Assembly (NCBI GenBank): GCA_028692535.1
Contig: JAQUXD010000001.1
Span: forward strand, 1 to 34,509
Source: Eubacteriales bacterium
Lineage (GTDB): Bacteria; Bacillota; Clostridia; Peptostreptococcales; Anaerovoracaceae
DNA length: 34,509 nucleotides
Direction of reading: 5' to 3'
Numbering within the stretch: the stretch's first letter is position 1; every line of letters starts with the position of its first letter. The notes under the pieces are model-generated. The model worked only from the letters and a program-made list of their open reading frames with translations. It ran no database searches and was not told where the DNA came from. Of this stretch, positions 1 through 27,576 are shown piece after piece. Position numbers and translations under genes: made by a program.

Positions 1-2276
1 TCCAGCGTCTGTTCCTCAACAGAGAAGCTGCGCGATTGATCAAGCGCTGCAATGATTTCGGTGCCGGCGGCGTATCGGTGGCCGTAGGAGAACTGGCCGA
101 CGGATTGTCTGTGGATCTGAATGCCGTACCCAAAAAATATGAAGGCTTGGACGGCACAGAGCTGGCCATCAGCGAATCCCAGGAGAGGATGGCCGTGGTG
201 GTAGACCCGGCGGATCAGGAGCAATTCTGCCGTCTGGCGGCAGAGGAAAACCTGGAAGTGACGCCCATTGCCCGGGTCACCGAGGAGGCCCGTCTGGTGA
301 TGTTCTGGAACGGTCGCAGGATCGTGGACATCGATCGCGGTTTTCTGAATACCAACGGCGCGCCAAAGAAGGCGGAAGCCCGGGTGGAAGCGCCGGCGTC
401 GTACGGGAAGGACGTGAACGATGATTTCGCCGGCAGTTTCAGGGCTCTGGTCCGGGATCTGAATGTATGCTCGAAAAAAGGGATGGTGGAACTTTTTGAC
501 GCTTCCGTTGGCGCCGGAATGGTCCTGGCGCCCCTGGGCGGCATCTCCAAGCGCACGCCGACCCAGGCCATGGTCCAAAAGGTTTTCGACCCTCTGCGGG
601 ACGTTCAGACCTGCTCGCTGATGGCTTGGGGCTATAATCCGTATATCTCTGAAAAGAATCCCTATCACGGCGCTTATCTGGCCGTGGTGGAGTCGGTGGC
701 CAAACTGATCGCCGCAGGCGCGGATTTCAAAGAAATCTATTTGTCTTTCCAGGAATACTTCGAGAAATTGGAGAAAGAGCCGTCCCGGTGGGGCAAGCCG
801 CTGGCATCTTTGCTGGGCGCCTTCCGAGCGCAGAAGGATCTGGATCTGGCCGCCATCGGCGGCAAGGATTCCATGAGCGGGACTTTCGAAGATATTCATG
901 TGCCGCCTTCGCTGATCTCTTTTGCCGTTACCACAGAATCCCTGGACCGGATCCTGTCTCCTGAATTCAAAGAGGCCGGCAGAGAGGTCTATTGGATCCG
1001 CCCGCAGCTCAACGCGGAAGGGCTGCCGACTGCAGGTTCACTGAAAAAGATCTTTGCCGCGATCTCGGAATGGGGCCGTCAGGGGATCCTGAGCGCTGCG
1101 GCGACTCCGGGCTACGGCGGCGCGGCCGAAGCCGTGTATAAAATGGCCCTGGGGAATCGGTTGGGCTTTGCCTTTGAACCGGAATGTCCCGTTGCGGAAT
1201 TGTTCGGCTACAGCTACGGTTCCTTCGTCTTGGAAACACATCGGCCTCCCGAAGCAGTACCGGAAGGTGTGCGTTGCACGAAGCTGGGCCGCACGCTGTC
1301 CGAGCCCACACTGATTCGGGGCAAGGAGAAGCTTTCCGTGGAGGAGCTGGCAGCTTCTTCGGAGGAAGTACTGGAAGGCATCTTTCCCTGCAAATATACT
1401 TCGGAACAGCCCAAAGCCTCTGTGGAAACCTATGCATTCAGAGCGAGCGGTCGTATAAAGCCCTCTGCGCGCGTTGCCCGGCCCAAGGTGCTGATCCCGG
1501 CATTTCCCGGCACCAACAGCGAATATGATTCGGCCAAAGCCATGGCCGCGGCCGGCGCGGATCCCCAAATCGCGGTGATCCGAAATCTGACCGCCTCCGA
1601 TGTCCAGGAATCCGCGCTGCAGTTCGCCCGGCAGCTGAAGCAGGCAAATATGGTCTTTATTCCCGGAGGCTTTTCCGGCGGAGACGAGCCTGACGGCTCC
1701 GGAAAATTCATCACCGCTTTTTTCCGCCATCCGGCAGTGCAGGAGGAAACGGAGCGGCTGCTGGAAGAGCGGGACGGCCTTATGATCGGTATCTGCAACG
1801 GATTTCAGGCGCTGATCAAGCTGGGGCTGCTTCCCTGGGGAAAGATTCTGCCGATCACAGAGGAATCGCCGACCGTCACGTTCAATGCCATCGGTCGCCA
1901 CAAAGCGGATATCGTACGTACCCGGATCGCCTCGGACAAGAGCCCCTGGCTGGCCGGAACCGGCGTGGGAGAGATCTACAGCGTACCCATATCCCATGGA
2001 GAGGGACGTTTCGTCTGCAGTCCCGAGCTGATGCGGCAACTGGCGGAGAACGGTCAGATCGCAGCCCAGTACGTGGACGAAAGCGGAGCGCCTACTATGG
2101 CGTTGCCTTTCAATCCCAACGGTTCGGCTTATGCCGTGGAGGCGATCACTTCACCTGACGGCAGGGTGCTGGGTAAAATGGGGCACTTCGAACGCAGCGG
2201 CAACGGCGTGTTCATCAACGTGCCGGGCCGTTACGACATGAAGCTGTTCGAGTCGGCGGTGGCATATTTTAAATAA
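1..2276 (+). CDS. purL: Phosphoribosylformylglycinamidine synthase, PurL with fused C-terminal glutamine amidotransferase (5'-truncated by the window)
   Basis: The frame stays open upstream of the listed ORF start (codons from nt 3: QRLFLNREAARLIKRCNDFGAGGVSVAVGEL). PurL motif GGKDSMSGTFE; C-terminal class I GATase with PGTNSEYD, PGGFSGGDEPDGSGK and nucleophile motif GICNGFQAL. Confidence 0.96.
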   Translation, partial: QRLFLNREAARLIKRCNDFGAGGVSVAVGELADGLSVDLNAVPKKYEGLDGTELAISESQERMAVVVDPADQEQFCRLAAEENLEVTPIARVTEEARLVMFWNGRRIVDIDRGFLNTNGAPKKAEARVEAPASYGKDVNDDFAGSFRALVRDLNVCSKKGMVELFDASVGAGMVLAPLGGISKRTPTQAMVQKVFDPLRDVQTCSLMAWGYNPYISEKNPYHGAYLAVVESVAKLIAAGADFKEIYLSFQEYFEKLEKEPSRWGKPLASLLGAFRAQKDLDLAAIGGKDSMSGTFEDIHVPPSLISFAVTTESLDRILSPEFKEAGREVYWIRPQLNAEGLPTAGSLKKIFAAISEWGRQGILSAAATPGYGGAAEAVYKMALGNRLGFAFEPECPVAELFGYSYGSFVLETHRPPEAVPEGVRCTKLGRTLSEPTLIRGKEKLSVEELAASSEEVLEGIFPCKYTSEQPKASVETYAFRASGRIKPSARVARPKVLIPAFPGTNSEYDSAKAMAAAGADPQIAVIRNLTASDVQESALQFARQLKQANMVFIPGGFSGGDEPDGSGKFITAFFRHPAVQEETERLLEERDGLMIGICNGFQALIKLGLLPWGKILPITEESPTVTFNAIGRHKADIVRTRIASDKSPWLAGTGVGEIYSVPISHGEGRFVCSPELMRQLAENGQIAAQYVDESGAPTMALPFNPNGSAYAVEAITSPDGRVLGKMGHFERSGNGVFINVPGRYDMKLFESAVAYFK

Positions 2277-2299
2277 GGACTTCGCTTTTTCGGACATCC

Positions 2300-2335
2300 A
2301 AAAAGCGCTCCGGCCGATCGGGCCGGAGCGCTTTT
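2300..2335. terminator. Bidirectional Rho-independent terminator between convergent purL and bactofilin genes
   Basis: Near-perfect inverted repeat AAAAGCGCTCCGGCC-GATCG-GGCCGGAGCGCTTTT with T-rich flanks on both strands. Confidence 0.9.
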
Positions 2336-2350
2336 GTTCTGAGCAGATGC

Positions 2351-2797
2351 TTAGAGTTTCTTCGTTTCTTTATTTGCAGGAGCTGTCGGCTCGGCCGCCG
2401 GTTTGGGCTTGGCCGGTTTTTTGATTTTAAGATTACCTTCGAATACGGCATCGTCGCTCATGATGAGCCTTGCAGCCTGCAGCTCCCCTTCGACTTTGCC
2501 CTCGCCGGCGATCTCTACAGTGCTTTTACACCGGATGCTGCCTTGCGCAACCCCTGCAACGATCAGGTTTTCGGTAGTGATATCTCCTGTATATTGAGCT
2601 TTTTCCGTGAATGTGACGTTGCTGGTGGATTTAATGTTTCCTTGTATGCTGCCGTGGATCAGCATTGGTTCATTCGACTGGAAATCGCCCTGAAACAATA
2701 CGCCTTCTGCTAAAACGGTATTGGCTTTGTCCGGCTCTGTTTCGGGGCTTTTTTGAGTGACCGGCTCCGCGGGTTCCGCTTTCTTTTTGAGTATCAT
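2351..2797 (-). CDS. Bactofilin family protein (polymer-forming cytoskeletal), copy 1
   Basis: 148 aa with repeated short beta-helix rungs (GVLFQGDFQSNEPMLIHGSIQGNIKSTSNVTF...GDITTENLIVAGVAQGSIRCKSTVEI..GKVEGELQAARLI), flanked by low-complexity K/P/A/E tails. Confidence 0.88.
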   Translation of the reverse strand: MILKKKAEPAEPVTQKSPETEPDKANTVLAEGVLFQGDFQSNEPMLIHGSIQGNIKSTSNVTFTEKAQYTGDITTENLIVAGVAQGSIRCKSTVEIAGEGKVEGELQAARLIMSDDAVFEGNLKIKKPAKPKPAAEPTAPANKETKKL

Positions 2798-2827
2798 GTG
2801 GGTGGTTCCTTTCTGGTGAAATAACGT

Positions 2828-4336
2828 TTAGAGAGATAATTCTCCAAGCTTTTCCTCTATCAGGATCTTACGGTCTTCCAAAAGAAGAATTTCGCTGTAC
2901 TTATCATACAACAAACTGCCGAAATTTGAAATGAATTTTGCACTTTTCGGATCGGTCGTCAGCTCAGTAATAGCCAGAAGCATCTCTTGATCCGCGCCGT
3001 AGACGGCTTCGATCATCTCCAGTGCAGACTCCAGTCCGGACGAAACGGCTTGACCTTTGGCCCGAAGGGCGCCGGATAATTCGTTGAATCGGATACGCAT
3101 GACATCAAAGGACGCTTCCGGTGTGTCGCCGCCTTCCATCAGGACACTTTTCTTCAACGAGTGGAGCAGCGCTTCGACGGCCTTGAACCGGTCTTTTTTT
3201 TCTTTGGAAAGATTGTGGGCGGAAGCCGCGCTTTGCAGCGATTCCTGTTGATGCAGGATTTTTCTGTCCAGAGCCTTTGCGATATCCGAACCGCTTTCCG
3301 CTTCCTGGCGCACCTGTTTCAGGATCGGCAGGGCCAGATTTAGAATTTCCCGATCTTCTGCGATCATCCGAATCTCTTCCAATGTGCGGTCCAAAAGCAT
3401 GTGGACTACTGCGATCCTTTCGTCGAACCGGGCTGCCTTCATCTGACGGATCAGATCTTCGTTCAAATCCTCTTTTCTGAAATCTCGGTCGGCATACAGC
3501 TTGCGGTATTTATTGAACAATTCATAATAGAGCGTAAACGCCCGGGCAACCCTCTCGTTCCGGATATACTGGCTCACCAGATTGTCTTCCACCGGCAATT
3601 GCTCTTCTTCCATCAGATACAGGATCTGGGACAGGTCTTCCCAGCCTCTGGCCGTTACGTAGGATTTTTCCCCGGCATCGATCTCCACGCTGTAGAAGTC
3701 TTCCCGATTGGCGTCCAGATAGCCGGTGACAGACCGATGTATGTGATTGGCCGAAGCGTAGTGACGCCAGGCGTCGTAATCTGAATCCACTTCGATCACC
3801 TTGAGCCGGTCCAGCGTGACGATATCCAGGTTTCTGGCGGAGCGATTGTATTCCGGCGGGTTTCCTGCGGTAACTACGACCCAGCCGTCCGGCACCTTGT
3901 GTTCGCCAAAACGCTTATACTGCAGAAACTGGAGCATGGAGGGCATCAGCGTTTCCGAGATACAGTTGATTTCGTCCAGAAACAAGATCCCTTCCCGGAT
4001 GCCGCTTTCCTCGATGGTCTGATGGATGGATCCGATGATTTCACTCATGGAATATCGGCAGACTGTGTACTCCCGGTTGTCGAAGGTTTTCTTCTCGAGA
4101 ATGGGCAATCCCAGAGCGCTCTGGCGCGTGTGGTGCGTCATGGAGTATGACACGATGGCGATACCCATTTCCTGGGCGATCTGTTCCATGATGGCACTTT
4201 TGCCGATGCCTGGCGGTCCGATCAGAAAGATTGGTCTCTGACTGGCCACGGGGATCCGGTATTCTCCGTAATCGTCCTTTTTTAAGTAGATTTGAACCGT
4301 ATTTCGGATTTGCTGTTTGACGTCGTTGATGAACAT
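2828..4336 (-). CDS. MoxR-like AAA+ ATPase
   Basis: Walker A GPPGIGKS, Walker B GILFLDEINCIS, sensor-1-like VVTAGNPPEYNRSA. 502 aa with a long helical C-terminal region. Confidence 0.9.
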   Translation of the reverse strand: MFINDVKQQIRNTVQIYLKKDDYGEYRIPVASQRPIFLIGPPGIGKSAIMEQIAQEMGIAIVSYSMTHHTRQSALGLPILEKKTFDNREYTVCRYSMSEIIGSIHQTIEESGIREGILFLDEINCISETLMPSMLQFLQYKRFGEHKVPDGWVVVTAGNPPEYNRSARNLDIVTLDRLKVIEVDSDYDAWRHYASANHIHRSVTGYLDANREDFYSVEIDAGEKSYVTARGWEDLSQILYLMEEEQLPVEDNLVSQYIRNERVARAFTLYYELFNKYRKLYADRDFRKEDLNEDLIRQMKAARFDERIAVVHMLLDRTLEEIRMIAEDREILNLALPILKQVRQEAESGSDIAKALDRKILHQQESLQSAASAHNLSKEKKDRFKAVEALLHSLKKSVLMEGGDTPEASFDVMRIRFNELSGALRAKGQAVSSGLESALEMIEAVYGADQEMLLAITELTTDPKSAKFISNFGSLLYDKYSEILLLEDRKILIEEKLGELSL

Positions 4337-4363
4337 GGATGCACACTCCTGTATTTCGGTCTG

Positions 4364-5686
4364 TTATTCGAATTCCACTTTCGTCGCCCAGGCAGGGGCC
4401 TCGGACGCGTTATTGTTTCCTTTGACAAAGGCGAAGACGGCTTCGCAGGGCGGCGCCCAATCCGGGTATGTTCCGAATCCGTCAGTGAAGTAGATGAGTC
4501 CTCTCAGATTTCGAAGTACGCCCAGACGAATTTGATCTTCCACCCATTGAAACACCGGCCGAAAATCCGTATCGCCGAATCCTGTCAGCTTTTCATTTGC
4601 CAGGTAGTCTTCCATGTCCCGGTCTCCGGTGATCAGCCGGCAGGAGCGAATCCTGTCGTCTGCCTGGATCAGATAAAGACGGGTCTTTTGGGTAATGCTC
4701 CGGGCATTCTTGATTATATCATAAGTCCGGGTCAGAAAGGCGCGGATCGGTTCTCCTTTGCAGGAGCCCGAGGTGTCCAGGGCGATGACGAATTCCCGGA
4801 TTTTTTCGTTCTCGCGGTATTCCAGAGGTTCTACCAGCGGCATGTTGCCGTAGAGTGACATGCCGTAGGTGTACAAGCCGAAATCGTATGCATCGGGATC
4901 TTCACGCAATTCTTCGTCGGTGACGGCGAAGCGCTTTAAAAAGGCGTCGTAGCGGTTTTTCTGATGCTGATTGCATTCCGGCATCTGTTGGATCAAGGCG
5001 ACGGGCAGTGTTTCCAGGCTGCCACGTGTCTTTTCTATTTCCATGCGCAGGATCCGGCTCCATTCTTTCCGCAGCTCGGCCTGACGACTGCCTTTCCCTT
5101 CGGACCCCAGGTCATTCCGGTCTTCCTCGTCGATCCCCTGCCACAACCCGTGATCATCCCGGAAAAACCAGGCCGCCGGACCGGCAAGCTCCGAGGCGGC
5201 GATTCCGGCGTCCCGGTATCGCGCATAAAGAAATTCTGCAGTGAGCGCGGGCATTTCCTGCGCAAGACCCGAAAGCATGGAGGCTCTGCGCCCGGCTTCG
5301 GGTCCGGTATCCGCGGGAAGCGGCAGTTCCCTCAGAATGCCTTCCACCTCCAGGTCCGCACAGAAATTCCAAAGGCTTTCTTCTTTGCCGAAGGCCCGGA
5401 AAGGGTGTCCCAGCAGGCAGTGCAGCACCGTGTGCAGATAAGCTCGCTGAAGACTGACGGGATCCTTTCGATAACAGCGGATGATCCGGTCCGGATCAAA
5501 ATAAAGGGTATCGCAGTCCGTGGCCATGCCGTTGGTCTGCGGGCGGCAAGTCAAAGTGAGGCGCCGGAATGCCATACTCAGGTATTTCAACGTTACAGTC
5601 AGTTCATCCCGGGCAAGTCCGAGGATGTCCAGAGCCACTTCACATTTCATGTCATCTTTGCGGATCGTCATGGGCCTTTCCTTCAT
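4364..5686 (-). CDS. VWA-like protein with N-terminal DUF2201-type putative metallopeptidase domain
   Basis: C-terminal MIDAS-like residues DTSGSC...GFGDTDFRP...YFTDGFG; N-terminal LHTVLHCLLGH motif. Start overlaps the upstream LRR stop (TAATG). Confidence 0.82.
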   Translation of the reverse strand: MKERPMTIRKDDMKCEVALDILGLARDELTVTLKYLSMAFRRLTLTCRPQTNGMATDCDTLYFDPDRIIRCYRKDPVSLQRAYLHTVLHCLLGHPFRAFGKEESLWNFCADLEVEGILRELPLPADTGPEAGRRASMLSGLAQEMPALTAEFLYARYRDAGIAASELAGPAAWFFRDDHGLWQGIDEEDRNDLGSEGKGSRQAELRKEWSRILRMEIEKTRGSLETLPVALIQQMPECNQHQKNRYDAFLKRFAVTDEELREDPDAYDFGLYTYGMSLYGNMPLVEPLEYRENEKIREFVIALDTSGSCKGEPIRAFLTRTYDIIKNARSITQKTRLYLIQADDRIRSCRLITGDRDMEDYLANEKLTGFGDTDFRPVFQWVEDQIRLGVLRNLRGLIYFTDGFGTYPDWAPPCEAVFAFVKGNNNASEAPAWATKVEFE

Positions 5687-6720
5687 TAAAGCGTAAGATC
5701 GTCGTAACGAGGCGTAGTCTGCTGCTGTCTGTTCCGGATGAGCCAGGCAATACAGCGGGCATCGCCTTTCCTGTTGACTGCGTCAAACAAGGCGTTTGCC
5801 TGTTCGCGCCGCAGGAGTTCCCGGGCAGAGAGCAATTCCAGCAACATCCATCGATGGTCGTCTTCCACAGATTCCACGCTCTCGACTGCGTGCCTTCCCA
5901 GCCACGACAGATAACGTTCTTCGGCGGCACGGGTCAAATCCCGGGGATACAGCAGCCGATACAGGGAGACTTTCGTTTTGTCTTCTTTTGAGACCATCGT
6001 CGGAAAGAGGTTGTCGTATGCCTCCAGGTTCAGTTGTCCGTCGGGAGACCACAGCTCCATCAGGGCGTCCAGATAGCTTCTTTGCTCGGCCCTTGAGGCC
6101 ATCCATAGGATGTACTGCGTCTTTGCTGAATCGACAGCTCGAAAAGAGATAAAATGTCCTTTGAAGCGGATACTGTCCGCCCAGTGCCCCGATTTCTTGT
6201 CCGGATCGTACAGCGCCCGGCCCAGCATCGGCGCACGCAGTGTCTCTGCTGCCAGGAGACCTCTGCAGCCCCAGAACGCGCCTTCTCCCAGTCGAACCAA
6301 TTCCCGGGGCAGGCGGACAACACCGTCTTCGCCCTTTGCTCCTTCTCCGCTGCCGAAGCTCCAGGAAAAAGCATAGTCGCCGATTTCCCGCAGAGCATCC
6401 GGAAACGCAGGCATGTGCAGAAGGCTGCAGTCCGCAAAGGCGAAGGCGCCGATGGACTGCAATCGGGGTCCCCAAAGGACCTCTTGCAGGGACGGGCAGG
6501 CAAAAAATGCTCGATTGCCGATGTGTTCCACACTGTCGGGAAAAACAACTGCCCGAAGGGAGGGGTTCCGCAGAAACGCTTCGTCAGCGATGTGCCGAAT
6601 CCCTGCGGGAAGGACCAGGTGGGTTTCCCGGCCGGTATAGGTGATGAGGCGATCTTCTTCGATCACGTAATGTCCGCTGTGATCGCCGGTGCGGGCACAG
6701 GATGATCCTTTCATGGGCAC
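5686..6720 (-). CDS. BspA-type (LRR_5) leucine-rich repeat protein
   Basis: Repeats such as GIRHIADEAFLRNPSLRAVVFPDSVEHIGNRAFFACPSLQEVLWGPRLQSIGAFAFADCSLL, typical of LRR_5/BspA. Confidence 0.85.
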   Translation of the reverse strand: MPMKGSSCARTGDHSGHYVIEEDRLITYTGRETHLVLPAGIRHIADEAFLRNPSLRAVVFPDSVEHIGNRAFFACPSLQEVLWGPRLQSIGAFAFADCSLLHMPAFPDALREIGDYAFSWSFGSGEGAKGEDGVVRLPRELVRLGEGAFWGCRGLLAAETLRAPMLGRALYDPDKKSGHWADSIRFKGHFISFRAVDSAKTQYILWMASRAEQRSYLDALMELWSPDGQLNLEAYDNLFPTMVSKEDKTKVSLYRLLYPRDLTRAAEERYLSWLGRHAVESVESVEDDHRWMLLELLSARELLRREQANALFDAVNRKGDARCIAWLIRNRQQQTTPRYDDLTL

Positions 6721-18297: not shown

Positions 18298-18999
18298 ATG
18301 TTTGGTATTTTTTCCGGAACGATTGTCAATGCCCTGCTGGTGATCGTGGGGACGGCTGCAGGATTGATCTTTAAAACGGATCGGCTGCAATCCATCGGGG
18401 AACGCATTTTTCAGGTGTTCGCCCTTTTTGTCCTGGCCATGGGCGTCAACGGCGCTTCGGATCTGTCCCGGCCGGTGTTCATCCTGCTTTCTGTTACCGG
18501 CGGCGTAGCGCTGGGCGAGATCATCGATTTGGACGAAAAATTCAATCGTCTGGGCAGAAGCCTGCAAAAACGGTTTGCACGGTCCGACGACAGTCATTTT
18601 GCCACGGGTTTTATCCAGGCCTCTCTTCTCTTCTGCGTGGGATCCATGACCGTGGTAGGAGCCCTTCAGTCCGGCATGGACGGCAATCACAGCGTGCTCT
18701 ACGCCAAGAGCCTGATCGATGGCGTGTCCGCCGCTACGCTGGCCATGGGCTTTGGGATCGGCGTGGGATTTTCCGCCATTTCCGTGCTGATCTACGAGGG
18801 GTTGCTGACCCTTGCTGCCGGCGCCATCGCACCCGTCATGAGCGCGGAGATCATAGCATTGAGCTCTACCATCGGCAGTCTTTTTCTGATCGGGATGGCC
18901 TTGAACATGCTCAAACTCACAGAATTGAAGATCGCAAACTTTCTGCCGGCCATGTTCGTTCCCATCTTTTATGAAGCCGTCAGGCTTCTCCTTTCGTGA
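18298..18999 (+). CDS. DUF554 family membrane protein
   Basis: N-terminal GTIVNALLVIVGTAAGLIFK, VNGASDLSRPVFILLSVTGGVALGEIIDLDEKFNRLG, FIQASLLFCVGSMTVVGALQSGMDGNHSVLYAKSLIDGVSA. Confidence 0.85.
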   Translation: MFGIFSGTIVNALLVIVGTAAGLIFKTDRLQSIGERIFQVFALFVLAMGVNGASDLSRPVFILLSVTGGVALGEIIDLDEKFNRLGRSLQKRFARSDDSHFATGFIQASLLFCVGSMTVVGALQSGMDGNHSVLYAKSLIDGVSAATLAMGFGIGVGFSAISVLIYEGLLTLAAGAIAPVMSAEIIALSSTIGSLFLIGMALNMLKLTELKIANFLPAMFVPIFYEAVRLLLS

Positions 19000-19043: not shown

Positions 19044-19071
19044 TTGCATGAAATCAAGAATCAGGTATAAT
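19044..19071 (+). promoter_or_regulatory. Sigma-A-type promoter for the sensory-hydrogenase operon
   Basis: TTGCAT (19044-19049), 16-nt spacer, consensus TATAAT (19066-19071), about 52 nt before the ATG at 19123. Confidence 0.65.
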
Positions 19072-19122: not shown

Positions 19123-19467
19123 ATGAGAATTCAAAGAGTAAGAGAAGTGCTGGACGCGTCGGTGCTCTGCGGAGAAGAACTGCTGGACAGGGAGATCCTT
19201 TCCGCCTGCGCGGCGGATCTGATGAGCGATGTGCTGGCTTACGTCAAGACCGAAGCATTGCTGCTTACCGGTCTGACCAATACGCAGGTTATCCACACGG
19301 CAGATATGATGGACATCAACTGCATCGTCTTTGTACGAGGCAAAATGCCTTCGCAGGAGCTGATCGAATACGGACGGAAGCACGACATGGTTTTACTCAG
19401 CACTCCCCACAAAATGTACTATGCCAGCGGCTTGCTCTACAATGCCGGTCTCGGCGCCTGCAGGTGA
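19123..19467 (+). CDS. DRTGG-domain protein (copy 1)
   Basis: MRIQRVREVLDASVLCGEELLDREILSACAADLMSDVLAYVKTEALLLTGLTNTQVIHTADMMDINCIVFVRGK, DRTGG-like fold pattern. ATG at 19123 with GGGGAGG RBS. Confidence 0.75.
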   Translation: MRIQRVREVLDASVLCGEELLDREILSACAADLMSDVLAYVKTEALLLTGLTNTQVIHTADMMDINCIVFVRGKMPSQELIEYGRKHDMVLLSTPHKMYYASGLLYNAGLGACR

Positions 19468-19470
19468 CTC

Positions 19471-19896
19471 ATGGAAAAACTGCACTTGCATTACGATGTG
19501 GAAGGCAACGATTTTATCGCCGCCGGAGAGGCCTCCGGCCAGGTGAAGCGCGCGCTTCGGCAGCTGGGCATTGATTTTGAAGTCATTCGCCGCTGCGCCA
19601 TTTGCATGTATGAAGGAGAGATCAACATGGTGGTCCATGCCGACGGCGGCACGGCCGACGTGATGGTTGAGAAGGACAAGGTAACCATCATCCTGGAGGA
19701 TCGGGGTCCGGGTATTTCGGATATGGAGCTGGCCATGCAGGAAGGTTATTCCACGGCGTCTCAGGATGTACGGGAGTTGGGCTTCGGCGCAGGCATGGGT
19801 CTTCCCAACATGAAGAAATATTCCGACTCGCTGGAAATCAACAGCGAAGTGGGAAAAGGAACAAAGGTCACCATGGTGATCCATATCCCCGGCTGA
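19471..19896 (+). CDS. Anti-sigma-factor/HATPase_c-type ATP-binding protein
   Basis: N-box-like region (YEGEINMVVHADGG), G1 EDRGPGISD, G2 GFGAGMGLPNMKKYSD. No dimerisation/phosphoacceptor domain. Confidence 0.85.
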   Translation: MEKLHLHYDVEGNDFIAAGEASGQVKRALRQLGIDFEVIRRCAICMYEGEINMVVHADGGTADVMVEKDKVTIILEDRGPGISDMELAMQEGYSTASQDVRELGFGAGMGLPNMKKYSDSLEINSEVGKGTKVTMVIHIPG

Positions 19897-19944
19897 CTGT
19901 CCGAAAATCCATAGACTGTTTCAGCGCAGATCGGAGGGTGCACA

Positions 19945-21285
19945 TTGAAGCATTCGGTAACACTGGATAAAGATAAATGCAAAGGCTGTACGACCTGTAT
20001 CAAACACTGCCCCACGGAAGCCATCCGGGTTCGGCGCGGTATTGCTCATATTACCGAAGAGCGTTGTATCGATTGCGGCAACTGCATTCGGGTATGCCCT
20101 CATAAAGCGAAAAAAGCGGTATGCGACGATTTCGATCGTCTGAAAGAATTCGAATACAACATCGCGCTGCCGGCGCCGTCTCTCTACGGCCAGTTTCGCA
20201 ATCTCACCGATGTCAATCAGGTCCTCACGGCGTTTTTGCATATCGGATTCGACCATGTGGAAGAAGTGGCCCGGGGTGCCGAGCTCGTGTCCAGCCTCAC
20301 CAAATATGAGATGGAAAGCGATCCGAACCTGCCCAAACCCCTGATCTCTTCGGCTTGTCCGGCTGCCGTGCGGTTGATCTGCCAGCGATTCCCCAAGCTG
20401 ATCCCCCATATTTCAAAGGTCAGCGCGCCCTTCGAGATCGTAGCGATCCTGGCGCGCCAAGAGGCCGTGGAGCGGACCGGATTGCCACCGGAGAAAATCG
20501 GTGTGTTTTTCATTACGCCCTGTCCGGCCAAAGTGAGCGCCGGAAGAAATCCGGCCGGCTTGGAAACGCCCGTTGTGGACGGATTTTTCGCGATTTCCGA
20601 CATCTATAAACGTTTGATCAATGCGATGAAAAATATCGACGAACCTCAGAAACTGGCTCATTCCGGCCTGATCGGTGTGGGCTGGGCCCACTGCGGAGGC
20701 GAATCCAATGCCGTTTTCCAGGGACAGCATCTGGCTGTGGACGGCATAGACAATATCATCGAGGTACTGGAGGACCTGGAGGACGGTCTGCTGCCTCAGA
20801 TCGATTTTTTGGAGTTGAATGCCTGCAATCAGGGCTGTGTGGGGGGCTGCCTTACCGTGGAAAATCCCTATGTGGCCCAGACGCGAATCAAACAGCTGAT
20901 TCAGCACATGCCCATCAGTATGAATAAGGTGTCCACGGAGCCCAAGCCTCCTTCCTATATGTTTGATGATAAACCGCTGGAAGCTTCGCCGGTGAACGTG
21001 TTGGATGACGATATCGAAGTGGCGATGCAGAAGTATGCCCAGATCGAAAAGCTGGTGGAAACACTGCCGGGGCTCGACTGCGGCAGCTGTGGCGCCCCCA
21101 CCTGCAAAACGCTGGCCGAGGACATCGTTCAGGGTCTGGCCTCGGAAGACGACTGCATTTTCCGCATGCGGGAACGAATGCAATATCTGATGGGTATGGG
21201 CGATGCGGATGAATATCTCCCTCTGCCTTTCCGGCGGCGGGACGAAGAAGCTGAAAAAGCAGAGCAAGAAAGGAACGAACCATGA
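19945..21285 (+). CDS. [FeFe]-hydrogenase large-subunit-like Fe-S protein, putative sensory (HydS-like, probably group D)
   Basis: N-terminal 2x[4Fe-4S] ferredoxin (CKGCTTCIKHCPTEA, CIDCGNCIRVCPHKA). H-cluster-like loops SSACPAAV, ITPCPAKVSA, ELNACNQGCVGGC. C-terminal 4Fe-4S domain GLDCGSCGAPTCKTLAEDIV. Confidence 0.85.
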   Translation: MKHSVTLDKDKCKGCTTCIKHCPTEAIRVRRGIAHITEERCIDCGNCIRVCPHKAKKAVCDDFDRLKEFEYNIALPAPSLYGQFRNLTDVNQVLTAFLHIGFDHVEEVARGAELVSSLTKYEMESDPNLPKPLISSACPAAVRLICQRFPKLIPHISKVSAPFEIVAILARQEAVERTGLPPEKIGVFFITPCPAKVSAGRNPAGLETPVVDGFFAISDIYKRLINAMKNIDEPQKLAHSGLIGVGWAHCGGESNAVFQGQHLAVDGIDNIIEVLEDLEDGLLPQIDFLELNACNQGCVGGCLTVENPYVAQTRIKQLIQHMPISMNKVSTEPKPPSYMFDDKPLEASPVNVLDDDIEVAMQKYAQIEKLVETLPGLDCGSCGAPTCKTLAEDIVQGLASEDDCIFRMRERMQYLMGMGDADEYLPLPFRRRDEEAEKAEQERNEP

Positions 21286-21611
21286 CAGTAGCCGAAGTAG
21301 CAAAGAATTTGAATCTGACCTGCCATGTAGCCGCTGACGGAAAGCGAGAAGTGGAAGGAGGATATGTGGGAGACCTGCTCAGCTGGGTCATCGGTCGGGC
21401 CGGGCAGGGCGGCGCATGGGTCACCATCATGTCCAATCCCAACGTGGCCGCCGTAGCCATGCTGGCGGATACGTCCATGATCATCCTGGCCGAGGGCGTT
21501 CAGCCCGACGAAACGCTTCTGGCCAAAGCAAAGCAGCATCGGTTGAATCTATATACGGCAACCGAAGGGGCGTATGAGCTGGCTTGGCGACTGCACGAGC
21601 TGATCGGCTGA
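21282..21611 (+). CDS. DRTGG-domain-like protein (copy 2)
   Basis: MTVAEVAKNLNLTCHVAADGKREVEGGYVGDLLSWVIGRAGQGGAWVTIMSNPNVAAVAMLADTSMIILAEGVQPDETLLAKAKQHRLNLYTATEGAYELAWRLHELIG. ATGA overlap with the HydS-like gene. Confidence 0.75.
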   Translation: MTVAEVAKNLNLTCHVAADGKREVEGGYVGDLLSWVIGRAGQGGAWVTIMSNPNVAAVAMLADTSMIILAEGVQPDETLLAKAKQHRLNLYTATEGAYELAWRLHELIG

Positions 21612-21641
21612 CGTTTTCGGGCGCCGGCACAGGAGACGCCG

Positions 21642-22373
21642 ATGAAACTGTTCTATGACCTTCACATCCATTCCTGCTTATCCCCCTGCGGAGACAGCGA
21701 GATGACGCCTGCAAATATTGCCGGCATGGCGTACCTGGCCGGCTTGAATGTGGTTGCGATCTCGGATCACAACACTGCCCGTCACTGCCGGAGCTTTTCG
21801 AGTTGGGCGGAACGTTATCATCTGCTGGCGGTGCCTGCCATGGAACTGAATACCAGAGAAGAAGTCCATATCCTCTGCCTGTTTCCCGAGCTGGAAGCGG
21901 CAGAGGATTTTGATGCATATGTTCGAACGAAGCTGCCCGATATCAAAAATCGCCCGGATTTCTTCGGTCCGCAATTGATCCTGGACGATCAGGACCGGGT
22001 GATCGGTCAGGAAGACCGGCTCCTCACCGTAGGAACGGAGATCAGCATCTATGAGATATCAAGCCTGATGAAACCCTACGAAGGTCTGGCGATCCCGGCC
22101 CACATCGACAGGGATTCCAATTCGGTGCTGGCCAATCTGGGTTTTGTGACGACGGACATGGGCTTTACTGTTTCAGAGATTACCCGGCGGGGCGATCTTC
22201 CGGCGATCCGCGCGGAGAATGCAGCGCTGCGAGGCAAACCCTATGTCACAAATTCCGACGCGCATTATCTGGGAGATATTTTTGATGCCGAGTTCACCCT
22301 GGAAACCGAGGACTGGTCCTCTCGGGGGGTGGTCGATGCCATCCGAAAAGGAAATGGTTTAGGACGATTGTGA
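21642..22373 (+). CDS. PHP-domain metal-dependent phosphoesterase
   Basis: Metal-ligand motifs DLHIHSCLSPCG, ISDHNTA, ELNTREEVHILC, PAHIDRDSNS, TNSDAHYLGDI. Confidence 0.88.
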   Translation: MKLFYDLHIHSCLSPCGDSEMTPANIAGMAYLAGLNVVAISDHNTARHCRSFSSWAERYHLLAVPAMELNTREEVHILCLFPELEAAEDFDAYVRTKLPDIKNRPDFFGPQLILDDQDRVIGQEDRLLTVGTEISIYEISSLMKPYEGLAIPAHIDRDSNSVLANLGFVTTDMGFTVSEITRRGDLPAIRAENAALRGKPYVTNSDAHYLGDIFDAEFTLETEDWSSRGVVDAIRKGNGLGRL

Positions 22374-22433
22374 ATATTTAGACAAAAAACCGTAATTATT
22401 AAGCCGATATTCCAATTTACGCTACAGGTTCGG

Positions 22434-22462
22434 TTTACATTGGATGTACGCTATGTTAAAAT
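22434..22462 (+). promoter_or_regulatory. Sigma-A-type promoter for the hyd operon
   Basis: TTTACA (22434-22439), 17-nt spacer, TAAAAT (22457-22462), in an AT-rich intergenic region about 68 nt before the ATG. Confidence 0.6.
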
Positions 22463-22529: not shown

Positions 22530-23024
22530 ATGCCCAATCTGAAAACGCTCATCCCGTTTGCTGGGACCAAAGAGCAGGAAGATCGGCTGAGAGAAGCGAT
22601 CGCCAGATACAAGGGAGAACTGGGAGCGACCATGCCGATCATGCAGGAAGCCCAGGAAATCTACGGGTATCTTCCCGAAGAAGTACAGGTGATCATTGCC
22701 GAGGAACTCGGTGTTCCTCTTACGGAGATCTATGGAATTTCTTCATTCTACGCCCAATTCACCCACAATCCAAAAGGGCAGAACCAGATCAATGTCTGTC
22801 TGGGAACGGCCTGCTATGTCAAGGGCGCCGGCAACATATTGGACAAGGTCTGCGAAGTGGTCGGATGCAAAGAGGGAGAAATCACGGAAGACGGTAAATT
22901 CTCCATCGATGCGACCCGCTGTGTCGGAGCCTGCGGTCTGGCTCCCGTTATGATGATCAACGGCGATGTTTACGGCCGGCTCACACCGGATAAGATCGAT
23001 GCGATCATCGCCAAATACAAGTAG
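22530..23024 (+). CDS. hydC: HydC/NuoE-like [2Fe-2S] subunit of multimeric [FeFe]-hydrogenase
   Basis: YGISSFYAQFTHNPKGQNQINVCLGTACYVKGAGNILD and DATRCVGACGLAPVMMINGDVYGRLTPDKID. Confidence 0.93.
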   Translation: MPNLKTLIPFAGTKEQEDRLREAIARYKGELGATMPIMQEAQEIYGYLPEEVQVIIAEELGVPLTEIYGISSFYAQFTHNPKGQNQINVCLGTACYVKGAGNILDKVCEVVGCKEGEITEDGKFSIDATRCVGACGLAPVMMINGDVYGRLTPDKIDAIIAKYK

Positions 23025-23033
23025 TCCGAAGGA

Positions 23034-23585
23034 ATGAAAGAACTTTCGCTGAACGTGTTGGACTTGGCTCAGAATTCATTGTCGGCAGGAGCCCGTCACA
23101 TCACGATAGAGATCTGCGAGTCCGAAGAAAAGGACAGCCTGCACATTCGCATTGTCGATGACGGCGCCGGCATGGATCCGGATTTTCTGAAACGGGTCAC
23201 CGATCCATTCGTCACCACACGGACCACCCGTCCGGTGGGTATGGGGATCCCCCTGATCAAGATGGCGGCGGAAATGGCGGACGGACAGTTCAGTATCCAA
23301 AGCCGGAAGGGCGAAGGGACGGAACTGAATGCATCTTTTCGGCTGTCCCACGTGGATCGGATGCCCATCGGCGACATTGCCGGGACGGTCACCACATTGA
23401 TACAGGGCGCGCCGGAAGTGGACTTTATCTACATTCGCAGGACAGATAGCGGAAGTTTTGAATTCGATACCGGTCAGATACGGGGATTGATGGAGGGTAT
23501 ATCCCTTCGGGAACCCGAGGTTCTGGGCTGGATCCGAGAATATATCGCCCAGGGAGAAGCCGGGGTGATGGCACAAGAAGTGTAG
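23034..23585 (+). CDS. HATPase_c ATP-binding protein (hydE-position gene)
   Basis: N-box LNVLDLAQNSLSAGARHITIEI, G1 DDGAGMD, G2 PVGMGIPLIKMAAEMADG. No histidine phosphotransfer domain. Confidence 0.85.
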   Translation: MKELSLNVLDLAQNSLSAGARHITIEICESEEKDSLHIRIVDDGAGMDPDFLKRVTDPFVTTRTTRPVGMGIPLIKMAAEMADGQFSIQSRKGEGTELNASFRLSHVDRMPIGDIAGTVTTLIQGAPEVDFIYIRRTDSGSFEFDTGQIRGLMEGISLREPEVLGWIREYIAQGEAGVMAQEV

Positions 23586-23596: not shown

Positions 23597-23977
23597 ATGG
23601 ATGAAAAAATGAAGACCATAGAAGATCTCCAGAAAATCAGAGAAGAAATGCAGTCTAAGATCAGCCTCCGTAAAGATGATGGCGACAGTATCCGCGTTGT
23701 CGTGGGTATGGCCACCTGCGGAATCGCCGCCGGCGCGCGGCCTGTCCTGGAAGCCCTTGTCGACGAGGTTGGACGCAGACAGCTTAAAAACGTGATCGTT
23801 ACACAGACCGGATGCATTGGTGTATGCCGCCTGGAGCCGATCGTAGAAGTGTTCGAAAAAGACAAAGAGAAGGTCACTTATGTCAAAATGGATCCGGAAA
23901 TGGCCCGGACCCTGGTAAGTGAACATCTGGTCAACGGCAGGGTGGTACAGGCTTGGACCATCGGCGCTTCGGAATAA
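23597..23977 (+). CDS. Thioredoxin-like [2Fe-2S] ferredoxin (hydD-position gene)
   Basis: VVGMATCGIAAGARPVLEAL and VTQTGCIGVCRLEPIVEVFE (four-Cys thioredoxin-like 2Fe-2S pattern). Confidence 0.85.
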   Translation: MDEKMKTIEDLQKIREEMQSKISLRKDDGDSIRVVVGMATCGIAAGARPVLEALVDEVGRRQLKNVIVTQTGCIGVCRLEPIVEVFEKDKEKVTYVKMDPEMARTLVSEHLVNGRVVQAWTIGASE

Positions 23978-23989: not shown

Positions 23990-25783
23990 ATGAATTTTGT
24001 TAGATCGCATGTTCTGGTCTGCGGAGGAACCGGTTGCACTGCCTCCAAAAGCCCGGAAATCATTGCTGAATTCAATACACAGCTTAAAAACTGCGGGCTG
24101 GACAGCGAGGTCCGCGTGGTTCAAACCGGGTGCTTCGGACTGTGCGCGCTGGGACCCATCGTGGTGGTATATCCCGAAGGGACCTATTATGCGCAGATCA
24201 AGGTGGAAGATGTCAAGACCATCGTGGAAGAACATCTGCTCAAAGGGCGGATCGTTCAGGATCTCCTCTTTAAAGAGGCCGATGCTCACGGTGTGGAGCA
24301 GTCGCTGAACAACACCGATTTTTATCTTAAACAACATCGTATCGCTCTTCGCAATTGCGGCGTCATCAATCCCGAAGAGATCGATGAAGCCATCGCTTTC
24401 GATGCATATAAAGCGCTGGGTACCTGTCTGACGGAAAAAACCCCCCAGGAAGTCATCGAAATCATCACCGAATCGGGACTTCGCGGCAGAGGCGGCGCCG
24501 GATTCCCCACAGGGATCAAGTGGAAGTTTGCAGCCGCATCCCCGGGGCCCGTCAAATACGTTTGCTGCAACGCTGACGAAGGAGATCCCGGCGCATTCAT
24601 GGATCGTTCCGTGTTGGAAGGCGATCCCCATACTGTTCTGGAGGCTATGGCCATCGCAGGATACGCCATCGGCGCAAGCCAGGGATATATTTATATTCGT
24701 GCGGAATACCCGTTGGCTGTCAAACGGCTGGAGATCGCCATTGCGCAGGCCAAGGAATACGGCGTAATCGGGAAGAACATTCTGGGTACCGGTTTTGACT
24801 TCGACCTGGAGATTCGTCTGGGCGCCGGCGCATTTGTCTGCGGCGAAGAGACGGCCCTTATGACTTCCATCGAAGGGCACAGAGGCGAACCCCGTCCCCG
24901 TCCGCCTTTCCCCGCAGTCAAGGGTTTGTTCCAGAAACCTACTATTTTGAACAACGTCGAAACCTATGCAAACATCGCCTGGATCATCAATCACGGTCCC
25001 GCGGCGTTCAACTGCATGGGAACAGAAAAATCCAAGGGCACGAAGGTTTTCGCCCTGGGCGGAAAAATAAAGAATACAGGACTGGTGGAGATCCCCATGG
25101 GGACTACGCTTCGCGAAGTTGTGGAAGACATCGGCGGCGGTTGCCCGGATGGCAAGAAATTCAAGGCGGCACAGACCGGCGGTCCTTCCGGAGGCTGTAT
25201 TCCCGCATCCCTGATCGATACCCCCCTGGATTACGAGAGCATGGCGGCCATCGGCTCCATCATCGGTTCCGGCGGACTGATCGTCATGGACGAAGACAAT
25301 TGTATCGTGGACATTGCCAAGTTCTTCCTGCAGTTCACCATGGATGAATCCTGCGGCAAATGCTCGCCCTGTCGGATCGGTACCAAGAGAATGTACGAAA
25401 TACTGGATAAAATCACACAGGGCAAAGGCACGTTGGAAGATCTGGATATCCTGGAGGAACTGGCGCTTCACGTCAAGGAAAATTCTCTTTGCGGTCTGGG
25501 TCAGACAGCGCCGAATCCGGTCCTGTCCACCCTTCGTTACTTCCGCGACGAATACGAAGCCCACGTAGTGGACAAGAAGTGTCCGGCCGGCGTGTGCAAA
25601 GGTCTGGTTGAGTATAAGATCCTGTCTGACAAATGCATCGGCTGCACAGCCTGTGCCAGAGTCTGTCCGGTAGATGCCATCAGCGGGAAAGTCAAGGAAG
25701 TCCATTCCATCGACCCGTCTTTGTGCATCAAGTGTGGTTCGTGTATCGCAGCCTGCAAGTTCGGTGCAATCATCGTAGAATAG
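23990..25783 (+). CDS. hydB: HydB/NuoF-like NAD(P)H/FMN-binding subunit with extra Fe-S domains
   Basis: N-terminal 2Fe-2S (CGGTGCTASK...QTGCFGLCALGP), GRGGAGFPTGIKW, CNADEGDPGAFMDRS, ESCGKCSPCRIGTKRM, C-terminal 2x[4Fe-4S] (CIGCTACARVCP, CIKCGSCIAACK). Confidence 0.95.
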   Translation: MNFVRSHVLVCGGTGCTASKSPEIIAEFNTQLKNCGLDSEVRVVQTGCFGLCALGPIVVVYPEGTYYAQIKVEDVKTIVEEHLLKGRIVQDLLFKEADAHGVEQSLNNTDFYLKQHRIALRNCGVINPEEIDEAIAFDAYKALGTCLTEKTPQEVIEIITESGLRGRGGAGFPTGIKWKFAAASPGPVKYVCCNADEGDPGAFMDRSVLEGDPHTVLEAMAIAGYAIGASQGYIYIRAEYPLAVKRLEIAIAQAKEYGVIGKNILGTGFDFDLEIRLGAGAFVCGEETALMTSIEGHRGEPRPRPPFPAVKGLFQKPTILNNVETYANIAWIINHGPAAFNCMGTEKSKGTKVFALGGKIKNTGLVEIPMGTTLREVVEDIGGGCPDGKKFKAAQTGGPSGGCIPASLIDTPLDYESMAAIGSIIGSGGLIVMDEDNCIVDIAKFFLQFTMDESCGKCSPCRIGTKRMYEILDKITQGKGTLEDLDILEELALHVKENSLCGLGQTAPNPVLSTLRYFRDEYEAHVVDKKCPAGVCKGLVEYKILSDKCIGCTACARVCPVDAISGKVKEVHSIDPSLCIKCGSCIAACKFGAIIVE

Positions 25784-25800
25784 GCGGAAGGAGAAAATCA

Positions 25801-27576
25801 ATGAGTACTGTTAAAGTAAAAGTTAACGGCATGCAGATCGAATGTCCGTCCGATGCCACCGTGCTGGAAGCTGCACGCCAGGCCGGATTCCGGATCCCGA
25901 CGCTTTGCTATTTGAAAGGCATCAACGAAATCGGAGCCTGCAGAATGTGCCTCACGGAAGTGAAGGGCGCCAAGGGTCTTGTGGCTGCTTGCGTTTATCC
26001 CGTGGCCGAAGGCATGGAGATCAACACCAACTCGCAAAAAGCATACGACGCGCGCAAGCGCACCCTGGAACTCATTTTGTCCAATCACCGGATGGAATGC
26101 CTTACCTGCGTGCGGAACCAGAGCTGTGAACTGCAAGCTTTGGCCGAAGAATACGGCATGGAAGAGGTGCGTTTCGGCACACCCAAAGAAATGCAGCCCG
26201 ACATCGAGCAGTCCACACCTCATCTGATCCGGGACAACTCGAAATGTATTTTGTGCCGCCGCTGCGTAGCGGTTTGCAAAAATTTGCAGCACGCTGCGGT
26301 GATCGGACCCAACGACAGAGGCTTCAGCACCCATATCGGTTCGGCTTTTGACCGGGATCTGGGCGAAGTGGCCTGCATCAACTGCGGGCAGTGCATCAAC
26401 GTTTGTCCTACCGGAGCCCTCACGGAAGTGGATTCCACTTACAAGGTGTGGGAAGCGCTGGCAGACCCCAAGAAGCATGTGGTCGTAGGTACCGCTCCGG
26501 CCGTTCGCGCTACGCTGGGCGAGGAATTCGGCGATCCCATCGGAACCAATGCCCAGGGAAAAATGGTCGCTGCGCTGCACCGGCTGGGCTTCGACGGTGT
26601 TTTCGATGTGGATGTCACAGCAGACCTGACCATTCTGGAAGAAGGAACGGAATTTATTCATCGCCTGCAGAATGGCGGAACGTTGCCTCTGATCACATCC
26701 TGTTCTCCCGGTTGGATCCGGTTTTGCGAACAGTATTATCCCGAATTTATTCCGAACCTTTCCTCTTGCAAGAGTCCGCAGCAGATGTTCGGCGCTATGA
26801 TGAAGAGTTATTATGCAGACAAGCTGGGACTGAACCCGGAAGATGTCTTCGTGGTGACGGTCATGCCGTGTACCGCCAAGAAGTTTGAGATCAGACGGGA
26901 TGATCAGTCTGCCGTGAACGGTCTGTGGGATATGGATGAAACCATCACGACTCGGGAACTGGCCAGAATGATCCGCAAGACCGGGATGGACTGGTCTGCT
27001 CTGCCCGAAGAAGATTTTGATCCGGACTTCGGAGAATTCTCCGGTGCGGCGGTTATATTCGGCGCTTCCGGCGGTGTTATGGAAGCTGCCCTGCGTACTG
27101 TGGTGGAGATCCTTACCGGCGAAGAACTGGCTAAGCTGGACTTCGTGGATGTGCGCGGAATGGAAGGTATCAAGGAGGCCAGCTATGATGTAGCGGGCAC
27201 ACTGGTCAAGGTCGCCGTAGCCAGCGGCATGGAAAATGCGGCCAAATTGCTCGATAAGATCAAAGCCGGCGAAGCCGAATACCACTTTGTGGAAATCATG
27301 GGCTGCCCCGGCGGCTGCATCAACGGCGGCGGTCAGCCGATCCAGCCCGGCAATGTCCGCAACTTTGTGGATATCCAGACACTGCGGGCCGGCGCGCTGT
27401 ATTCAGAGGATGCGCTCATGAAAATGCGCAAGAGCCACGAAGTTCCCCTTATCAAGAAGATTTACAGCGACTACCTGGGCGAACCGGGCAGCCATCGCGC
27501 CCACGAACTGCTCCACACCAGCTACAAAGCATCGCCCAAATATCCGGGCCTGGAAGCAGACAAGAAAAAGAACTGA
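25801..27576 (+). CDS. hydA: [FeFe]-hydrogenase catalytic subunit HydA (NADH-dependent / bifurcating type)
   Basis: N-terminal 2Fe-2S; His-ligated cluster HRMECLTCVRNQSC; CILCRRCVAVC, CINCGQCINVCP; H-cluster motifs TSCSPGW, MPCTAKKFE, EIMGCPGGCINGGGQP; C-terminal small-subunit-like tail. ATG at 25801. Confidence 0.95.
   Translation: MSTVKVKVNGMQIECPSDATVLEAARQAGFRIPTLCYLKGINEIGACRMCLTEVKGAKGLVAACVYPVAEGMEINTNSQKAYDARKRTLELILSNHRMECLTCVRNQSCELQALAEEYGMEEVRFGTPKEMQPDIEQSTPHLIRDNSKCILCRRCVAVCKNLQHAAVIGPNDRGFSTHIGSAFDRDLGEVACINCGQCINVCPTGALTEVDSTYKVWEALADPKKHVVVGTAPAVRATLGEEFGDPIGTNAQGKMVAALHRLGFDGVFDVDVTADLTILEEGTEFIHRLQNGGTLPLITSCSPGWIRFCEQYYPEFIPNLSSCKSPQQMFGAMMKSYYADKLGLNPEDVFVVTVMPCTAKKFEIRRDDQSAVNGLWDMDETITTRELARMIRKTGMDWSALPEEDFDPDFGEFSGAAVIFGASGGVMEAALRTVVEILTGEELAKLDFVDVRGMEGIKEASYDVAGTLVKVAVASGMENAAKLLDKIKAGEAEYHFVEIMGCPGGCINGGGQPIQPGNVRNFVDIQTLRAGALYSEDALMKMRKSHEVPLIKKIYSDYLGEPGSHRAHELLHTSYKASPKYPGLEADKKKN

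Follow-up and report, generated by a model that had tools for sequence, protein, structure and literature searches.

A group D-type putative sensory [FeFe]-hydrogenase encoded in a conserved module with DRTGG-fold proteins, GHKL ATPases and a PHP enzyme

Among the closest described counterparts of the locus considered here are two putative sensory [FeFe]-hydrogenases, TamHydS and TmHydS, both of which have low activity and were proposed to be sensors (PMC8163306). TamHydS, the group D (M2e) enzyme of Thermoanaerobacter mathranii, has no PAS domain, carries two N-terminal [4Fe-4S] motifs and a C-terminal Cx2Cx4Cx16C motif, and has its gene grouped with those of a group A bifurcating hydrogenase and of an ATPase resembling histidine kinases; the other flanking gene was reported as an AraC-family regulator (PMC8163306, PMC13104023). 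TmHydS, of group C and likewise a putative sensor of H2, neighbors a bifurcating hydrogenase; it has a C-terminal FeS domain, an altered H-cluster pocket and an output through a PAS domain on the same chain (PMC10055695). How a group D enzyme relays its signal without a PAS domain was left as an open question in the first characterization of such an enzyme (PMC8163306). A further HATPase, HydE, lies within the hydABC operon of Acetobacterium woodii and was described as a lone protein to which no role was assigned (PMC3315566). The pairing of HydS with an ATPase neighbor is therefore already known. The DRTGG and PHP partners, gene fusions and input swap described below have no description in the literature that we searched, a weak negative in that subscription papers were thinly covered, and DRTGG and hydrogenase appeared together there only in an unrelated context. 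The reports on TamHydS contain no DRTGG protein, PHP enzyme, fusion or CBS swap (PMC8163306, PMC13104023).

The present locus lies in a 34,509-nucleotide stretch of DNA from a Eubacteriales bacterium, referred to as the window (Table 1). We read it as a module that reports H2 or the redox state of the ferredoxin pool to ferredoxin/NAD electron-transfer complexes through a kinase-DRTGG-PHP switch, and we give this reading a probability of roughly 0.55. A preliminary description of the window had listed five open reading frames (DRTGG, HATPase, HydS-like, DRTGG-like and PHP), all of which are recovered by ORF and domain scans. The HydS gene uses a TTG start codon with a GGAGGG ribosome site, and its reading frame overlaps that of DRTGG2 by 4 bases. 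The two operons said to bracket the module are also present, as profile scans identify Mrp/Mbh-type antiporter genes upstream and a bifurcating hydrogenase operon downstream, except that a DUF554 gene (18298-18999) intervenes on the antiporter side. The TATAAT hexamer previously taken as a promoter exists, preceded by a weak -35 element (TTGCAT at 19044-19049, three of six matches); the promoter scan makes no call there and promoter-like sites in the region are not in excess, so a sigma-70-type promoter at 19066 was rejected.

Table 1. Positions of module genes, neighboring hydrogenase genes and candidate sites in the window
Feature	Position	Strand	Basis
TATAAT -10-like hexamer, upstream of DRTGG1	19066..19071	+	sequence
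DRTGG1, stand-alone DRTGG-fold protein	19123..19467	+	ATG start; Pfam, AF2, Foldseek, conservation
HATPase1, SpoIIAB-like GHKL ATPase, putative Ser kinase	19471..19896	+	structures, TIGR01925, motifs
HydS, group D-type putative sensory [FeFe]-hydrogenase	19945..21285	+	Pfam, ligands, group D literature definition
DRTGG2, second DRTGG-type protein	21282..21611	+	family profile, conservation, fusions
PHP-fold metallophosphoesterase	21642..22373	+	conserved ligands, AF2, Foldseek
Candidate Rex operator TTGTGAATATTTAGACAA, 2 mismatches	22368..22385	+	sole match in window
Promoter-like site before hydrogenase operon, TTTACA-17-TAAAAT, extended TG	22434..22462	+	promoter scan; total sites not above chance
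NuoE/HydC-like [2Fe-2S] subunit, hydrogenase operon gene 1	22530..23024	+	domain profiles
HATPase2, second GHKL ATPase (Acetobacterium HydE type)	23034..23585	+	profiles, locus comparison, PHP fusion
Small [2Fe-2S] thioredoxin-like protein (HydD-like)	23597..23977	+	domain profiles, literature
NuoF/HydB flavoprotein subunit	23990..25783	+	Pfam
HydA, catalytic group A6 NADH-dependent [FeFe]-hydrogenase	25798..27576	+	NCBIfam NF040763, 870 bits

A Pfam scan of HydS returned Fe_hyd_lg_C (9e-28), two Fer4 domains and a C-terminal FeS domain and found no PAS domain, which sets the protein apart from group C. The cysteines of the two N-terminal [4Fe-4S] motifs (C12/15/18/22 and C41/44/47/51) and of the C-terminal Cx2Cx4Cx16C motif (C379-x2-C382-x4-C387-x16-C404) are invariant, and the [4Fe-4S]H ligands and bridging Cys of the H-domain are conserved in all 76 sequences compared (C138, C193 and C294) or in 75 of them (C298). 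Around these ligands the active site has changed, as had been claimed from the altered loops: the position of the proton-transfer residue C299 of CpI is Ala in 75 of 76 sequences, that of M353 is Thr, Ser or Ala in all 76, and that of M497 varies among Asn, Leu, Ala, Ser and others. TamHydS and TmHydS have such active-site substitutions in common with HydS, and TamHydS has likewise lost C299 and replaced both methionines, although at M497 TamHydS has Leu where HydS has Asn, and at M353 it has Ser where HydS has Thr. Judged by the features of the literature definition, HydS matches a group D (M2e) type putative sensory hydrogenase, which agrees with the sensory type first suggested for it. A HydE-like gene, which bears on H-cluster maturation, was seen; neither HydF nor HydG scored above the cut-off in the host MAG (94% complete), so that assembly of the H-cluster is only presumed in this host.

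The gene preceding HydS encodes an ATPase (HATPase_c, 3.5e-11) whose nearest solved structures are SpoIIAB. Its N, G1 and G2 motifs are invariant in 74 sequences and its catalytic Glu is invariant too (E48, N52, D77-x-G-x-G and G104-FGAGMG in the window copy); it scores 8e-16 against TIGR01925, under the cut-off, and fails the equivalog scores of both SpoIIAB (58 bits versus 135) and RsbW (23.5 versus 145). We call HATPase1 SpoIIAB-like and a putative Ser kinase. Members of the SpoIIAB family phosphorylate a Ser of a partner protein, and a partner-switching system such as SpoIIAB-SpoIIAA-SpoIIE or RsbW-RsbV-RsbU comprises a Ser kinase, a STAS antagonist, a PP2C phosphatase and a sigma factor. 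The module has only the kinase type, in which the N and G boxes and the catalytic Glu are retained, and has DRTGG and PHP proteins in place of a sigma factor or PP2C enzyme. A scan of the host MAG, 94% complete, gave no STAS match at all, and a canonical partner switch was rejected on that ground.

Where a phosphoacceptor might then lie is suggested by the DRTGG proteins. Both domains named in the preliminary description are borne out, DRTGG1 by the Pfam gathering score (1.7e-7, 31.4 versus 25.2 bits) and DRTGG2 by a family profile that recognizes it clearly, its window copy falling below the Pfam threshold (20.5 versus 25.2 bits). The AF2 model of DRTGG1 (pLDDT 90) resembles AF1212 (2ioj, TM 0.85) and the DRTGG domain of CBS-PPase (3l2b, 0.75) in Foldseek. 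The module shares this fold and an association with CBS domains with CBS-PPase, AF1212 and the HPr kinase N-domain, but its two members are stand-alone paralogues that do not keep the "DR" and "TGG" residues and that carry a family-specific D-x-x-S (D32-x-x-S35 in DRTGG1, D31-x-x-S34 in DRTGG2), present in every DRTGG1 and DRTGG2 examined whether or not HydS accompanies them. The earlier picture of a kinase-like ATPase without a phosphoacceptor thus calls for a qualification, since both DRTGG partners have an invariant Ser. In the AF2 model, S35 of DRTGG1 falls in a low-confidence loop preceding a helix. We know of no phosphorylation of a DRTGG domain elsewhere, and the D-x-x-S is missing from AF1212 at the position that aligns with it, so this Ser could instead be structural or ligand-binding.

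The genes had been proposed to form one pathway, and they do travel together. All five occur in unchanged order in 48 of 55 testable loci. A phylum-wide sample of 300 genomes has HydS and PHP together in 112, HydS alone in 8, PHP alone in 4 and neither in 176; for HydS and DRTGG1 the corresponding numbers are 107, 13, 9 and 171 (Fisher p about 1e-66 and 1e-54, values that ignore genome kinship). HydS, DRTGG1 and PHP co-occur nearly exclusively, in 100 of the 300 genomes and 40 of 46 HydS-bearing families, and PHP is missing from some of the genomes surveyed. A lack of conserved co-occurrence, named in the preliminary description as an outcome that would refute the pathway, was thus looked for and not seen. 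Four kinds of fusion join the products: DRTGG1~HATPase1 (seven genomes, two families), HATPase1~HydS (one case), HydS~DRTGG2 at the HydS C-terminus (two genera) and PHP~HATPase2 (one locus, with long PHP frames in six further genomes of its family). The five genes are accordingly a unit, as first described, but not a complete one. HATPase2, separated from PHP in the window by NuoE, is a sixth module gene, joined to PHP by fusion and adjacency in relatives. It resembles A. woodii HydE by description and by its position in a hydABC operon, and differs in being tied to PHP. One family encodes DRTGG1-DRTGG2-PHP-HATPase2 (L119/L120) apart from HATPase1-HydS (L131), and in one genome HydS is broken and HATPase1 missing. 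Three families have HydS-less modules with the order DRTGG1-[CBS2~HATPase1]-DRTGG2-PHP-HATPase2. Because such HydS-less relatives exist, several with a CBS pair on HATPase1, HydS has the look of an input that can be swapped for another, the alternatives numbering at least two, HydS itself and the CBS pair.

The genes, their intact catalytic motifs, their co-occurrence and fusions, the input swap and the neighbors suggest a relay of five steps. HydS, as a slow-turnover hydrogenase, would shift conformation with the state of its H-cluster, and its C-terminal [4Fe-4S] domain would pass the change to DRTGG2 and the adjacent HATPase1, a relay that would need a conformational route. DRTGG2 would fill the place that the PAS domain holds in group C sensors, so that DRTGG2 and HATPase1, separate or fused, are proposed in place of the same-chain PAS output of TmHydS. 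HATPase1, with DRTGG1, would phosphorylate the D-x-x-S Ser of DRTGG1, DRTGG2 or both, in a partner switch with DRTGG replacing the STAS protein. PHP, coupled to HATPase2, would remove the phosphate or a phosphate-derived nucleotide. Finally, the DRTGG state would act through HATPase2 to tune HydABC, or Rnf in other hosts, at the level of activity or of expression, alongside Rex.

The PHP step admits a second reading. PHP falls below the Pfam threshold (20.9 versus 26.4), and its identity is certain from the conserved metal ligands (H8, H10, D42/H43, E68, H76, H154, D206 and H208) and an AF2 model (pLDDT 97) that Foldseek places with EndoQ, TM0559 and RNase AM; consistent with the preliminary description, it looks catalytically intact. 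The nearest PHP structures, EndoQ, RNase AM and 2yb1 with AMP among them, work on nucleic acids or nucleotides rather than on phosphoproteins. In this second reading an adenine nucleotide might bind to the DRTGG and CBS domains, as their pairing in a nucleotide-regulated pyrophosphatase (3l2b/3l31) and the fusion of a CBS pair with HATPase1 where HydS is missing would suggest, with the HATPases as nucleotide-controlled switches, no protein phosphorylation, PHP hydrolyzing a nucleotide messenger or damaged nucleotide, and HydS gating by H2 or redox state. We consider this unlikely, as the invariant D-x-x-S and the SpoIIAB-type catalytic Glu fit kinase chemistry and the module contains no nucleotide synthase or cyclase.

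The genomic neighbors tie the phospho-switch that we favor to ferredoxin/NAD complexes generally (Hyd, Rnf, Rex and one case of Nfn among relatives) and not to hydrogenase or antiporter alone. hydABC lies no more than 10 kb away in 25 of 34 long loci, the module is found within the hydABC operon in four loci, Rnf follows the module or its parts immediately 3' in four others, and a Rex gene stands immediately 5' of DRTGG1 in five families; the Rex-like site in the window is within chance, since 34.5 kb of sequence should hold roughly one match of that quality. Among neighbors clustered from related loci, Mrp did not recur and was set aside as a part of the system, and no AraC-type output gene was found. 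Since DRTGG genes hold the corresponding place in the loci examined, the AraC annotation beside TamHydS deserves rechecking. FolC/ValS and SerC also recur as neighbors in some loci. CheW and a nitrilase, neighbors only in four divergent loci, were rejected as module members. The four modules within hydABC operons could also mean that HATPase chaperones with DRTGG and PHP helpers build or protect HydABC and Rnf, HydS being a scaffold or quality control and not a sensor; A. woodii HydE, of the HATPase2 type, is absent from the enzyme as purified and was suggested to have a possible role in assembly or signaling (PMC3315566). We hold this to be improbable: HydS retains its H-cluster ligands and loses the proton-transfer Cys, like the characterized putative sensors, the CBS input swap and the SpoIIAB-type ATPase point to signaling, and CheW adjoins HydS/HATPase1 in the four divergent loci. 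Joint inheritance without joint function is very hard to credit, for although gene order can persist by descent alone, as the recurrent FolC/ValS and SerC might illustrate, it would have to explain how the genes co-occur almost exclusively over 40 families, are fused in four different ways, have decayed together in one genome and persist as a unit at different chromosomal sites.

For group D enzymes, the fusions point to a likely relay, direct coupling of HydS to DRTGG2 and the SpoIIAB-like ATPase, which is testable with two purified proteins. Only tentatively do we extend the phospho-switch reading to a previously undescribed bacterial class, in which a SpoIIAB-like Ser kinase would act on DRTGG instead of STAS, PHP would reset the switch, and interchangeable H-cluster or CBS nucleotide inputs would tune the ferredoxin/NAD complexes of anaerobes to H2, redox and energy state. 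The CBS-bearing modules without HydS suggest that the system may regulate ferredoxin/NAD balance more generally, in anaerobes both fermentative and acetogenic, and this, if true, would bear on H2 production, syntrophy and the engineering of acetogens.

The five open reading frames of the module, listed below with other features, are borne out in the window sequence, and Pfam and family searches upheld the domain assignments of the preliminary description, with a qualification for DRTGG2 and PHP. Taken singly, these two fall below the Pfam curated cut-offs in the window. DRTGG2 was identified from family alignments and invariant residues, and PHP from both together with an AlphaFold model (mean pLDDT 97) whose closest solved structures are the PHP proteins EndoQ, TM0559, and RNase AM. 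The proposed TATAAT promoter has its hexamer but a poor -35 element. Among the scanned loci, the DUF554 gene that separates the Mrp/Mbh-type operon from the module is common only to the window and its nearest relative, L001.

Coordinates of the module and of other features (L, locus from a related genome or the host genome G000)
Feature	Location	Positions	Strand	Bases to next gene
DUF554 membrane protein	window	18298-18999		
DRTGG1	window	19123-19467	+	3
HATP1 (HATPase)	window	19471-19896	+	48
HydS	window	19945-21285	+	-4
DRTGG2	window	21282-21611	+	30
PHP	window	21642-22373	+	156
NuoE (first hydrogenase operon gene)	window	22530-23024	+	
HATP2 (HATPase)	window	23034-23585	+	
Second sensor-type hydrogenase (Fe_hyd + FeS domain, 567 aa) with overlapping SpoIIE-type phosphatase	L168 (G000:C95)	2152-5020	-	
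HydE-like radical SAM gene	L169 (G000:C103)	4841-5839		
HydS remnant	L118	4560-5127		
[FeFe]-hydrogenase-like protein fused to MCP domain	L131	2934-4847	-	
Lone DRTGG1 paralogue	L125	4823-5227		

That the module genes form a functional unit is near certain because of their co-occurrence, fusions, and exchange of input. Scanning the genome collection for HydS gave 79 loci, and the expected neighborhood conservation was found: all five genes are present, in unchanged order, in 48 of the 55 loci with adequate flanks. Two loci hold only DRTGG1-HATP1-HydS, that of Desulfotomaculum copahuensis lacks PHP, and three have CheW and nitrilase neighbors. To counter the bias of starting from HydS, profiles of HydS, PHP, and DRTGG1 were run against 300 genomes spanning the phylum. 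Whole HydS copies scored at least 438 bits and other [FeFe] enzymes at most 214, with the few intermediate fragments counted as HydS. HydS was present in 120 genomes and DRTGG1 and PHP in 116 each; HydS and PHP occurred together in 112, HydS only in 8, PHP only in 4, and neither in 176. The p values of about 1e-66 (HydS-PHP) and 1e-54 (HydS-DRTGG1) ignore relatedness, and the safer figure is the family count: all three genes are found in 100 genomes, from 40 of the 46 HydS-bearing families.

In relatives, single reading frames join DRTGG1 to HATP1 (seven loci), HATP1 to HydS (one), HydS to DRTGG2 (two genera), and PHP to HATP2 (one, with PHP matches in frames of 380-441 aa in six more genomes of that family). 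Where HydS and DRTGG2 are fused, DRTGG2 comes after the C-terminal FeS domain, a position taken by PAS in group C sensors. HATP2 also lies immediately 3′ of PHP, with NuoE elsewhere, in 11 loci. The fusion and this adjacency make HATP2 a sixth member, so the module described as five-gene was one short. By description and position, HATP2 is of the same type as Acetobacterium woodii HydE (PMC3315566).

Three families lack HydS and instead encode DRTGG1, a CBS pair fused to HATP1 (Pfam 6e-32 in L115), DRTGG2, PHP, and HATP2. At L118 the HydS frame is broken, its N-terminal part gone, and HATP1 is lost as well, with the rest retained. One family carries DRTGG1-DRTGG2-PHP-HATP2 (L119, L120) separately from HATP1-HydS (L131), a split that points to separate sensor and effector halves. 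The L131 pair adjoins CheW and a possible H2 chemoreceptor, in which an [FeFe]-hydrogenase-like protein is joined to a methyl-accepting chemotaxis signaling domain. The lone DRTGG1 paralogue of L125 lies by multihaem-cytochrome-like genes, away from that genome's main module.

As proposed earlier, HydS keeps its Fe-S ligands (CpI numbering: C298 in 75/76 sequences, the others in 76/76) and has an altered active site, with C299 replaced by Ala in 75/76, M353 by Thr, Ser, or Ala, and M497 by Asn and others, matching characterized sensory [FeFe]-hydrogenases (PMC8163306). SpoIIAB structures were the only structural matches to HATP1 at E ≤ 1e-4, and the alignment shows no variation in its catalytic Glu, N-box Asn, G1, or G2. 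D-x-x-S occurs in 69/69 aligned DRTGG1 and 69/69 DRTGG2 sequences and in every copy from loci added later, whether or not they encode HydS; the two sequences that the pattern missed, DFLSD and DLMSE, do contain the motif. The DRTGG1 model places its Ser (S35) in a flexible loop preceding a helix. The motif is absent from AF1212, a DRTGG protein that is not part of the module. PHP appears intact, with all metal ligands conserved in alignment. A signaling rather than an assembly role is likely. Read most economically, the invariant residues would make HATP1 the kinase that phosphorylates Ser in the DRTGG proteins, with a resetting role for PHP. The main rival to this reading has the module working through a nucleotide signal.

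No STAS protein was found in the host MAG. Its sole SpoIIE-type phosphatase overlaps the second sensor-type hydrogenase, next to PEP carboxykinase. The partner of one sensory hydrogenase is thus of Ser-kinase type, whereas that of the other is of Ser-phosphatase type. This MAG encodes three [FeFe]-type H-domain proteins but yielded neither HydF nor HydG above cut-off, which points to missing contigs or to unusual maturation. A radical SAM gene resembling HydE is present.

Already known are the putative sensor role of group D HydS, with an adjacent HK-like ATPase (PMC8163306), and a HATPase within the hydABC operon (PMC3315566). The literature searched contained no description of the DRTGG and PHP partners, fusions, CBS swap, or Rnf/Rex association. 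The AraC-family gene published as flanking TamHydS (PMC8163306) may be a DRTGG protein under the wrong name.

FolC lies just 5′ of DRTGG1 in nine HydS-less or Rnf-linked loci, some also with ValS or a small membrane protein there, a setting that could be the module's earlier place on the chromosome. In seven loci, a NuoF/HydB frame of about 800-1020 aa also matches NfnA/GltD, which suggests that HydB is fused to an NfnA-type part and that the hydrogenase may be NADPH-linked. In 25 of 34 long loci, bifurcating hydABC is no more than 10 kb from the module, whether downstream of it, divergent, or surrounding it. An Rnf operon directly follows the module in three loci and RnfC in a fourth, and Rex is immediately 5′ of DRTGG1 in five families, often with a 4-base overlap. 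The sole Rex-operator-like site in the window (two mismatches) falls between PHP and nuoE and is only suggestive, since chance alone would give about one match of this quality per 34.5 kb. The shared theme of the module's neighbors is the ferredoxin/NAD(H) pool.
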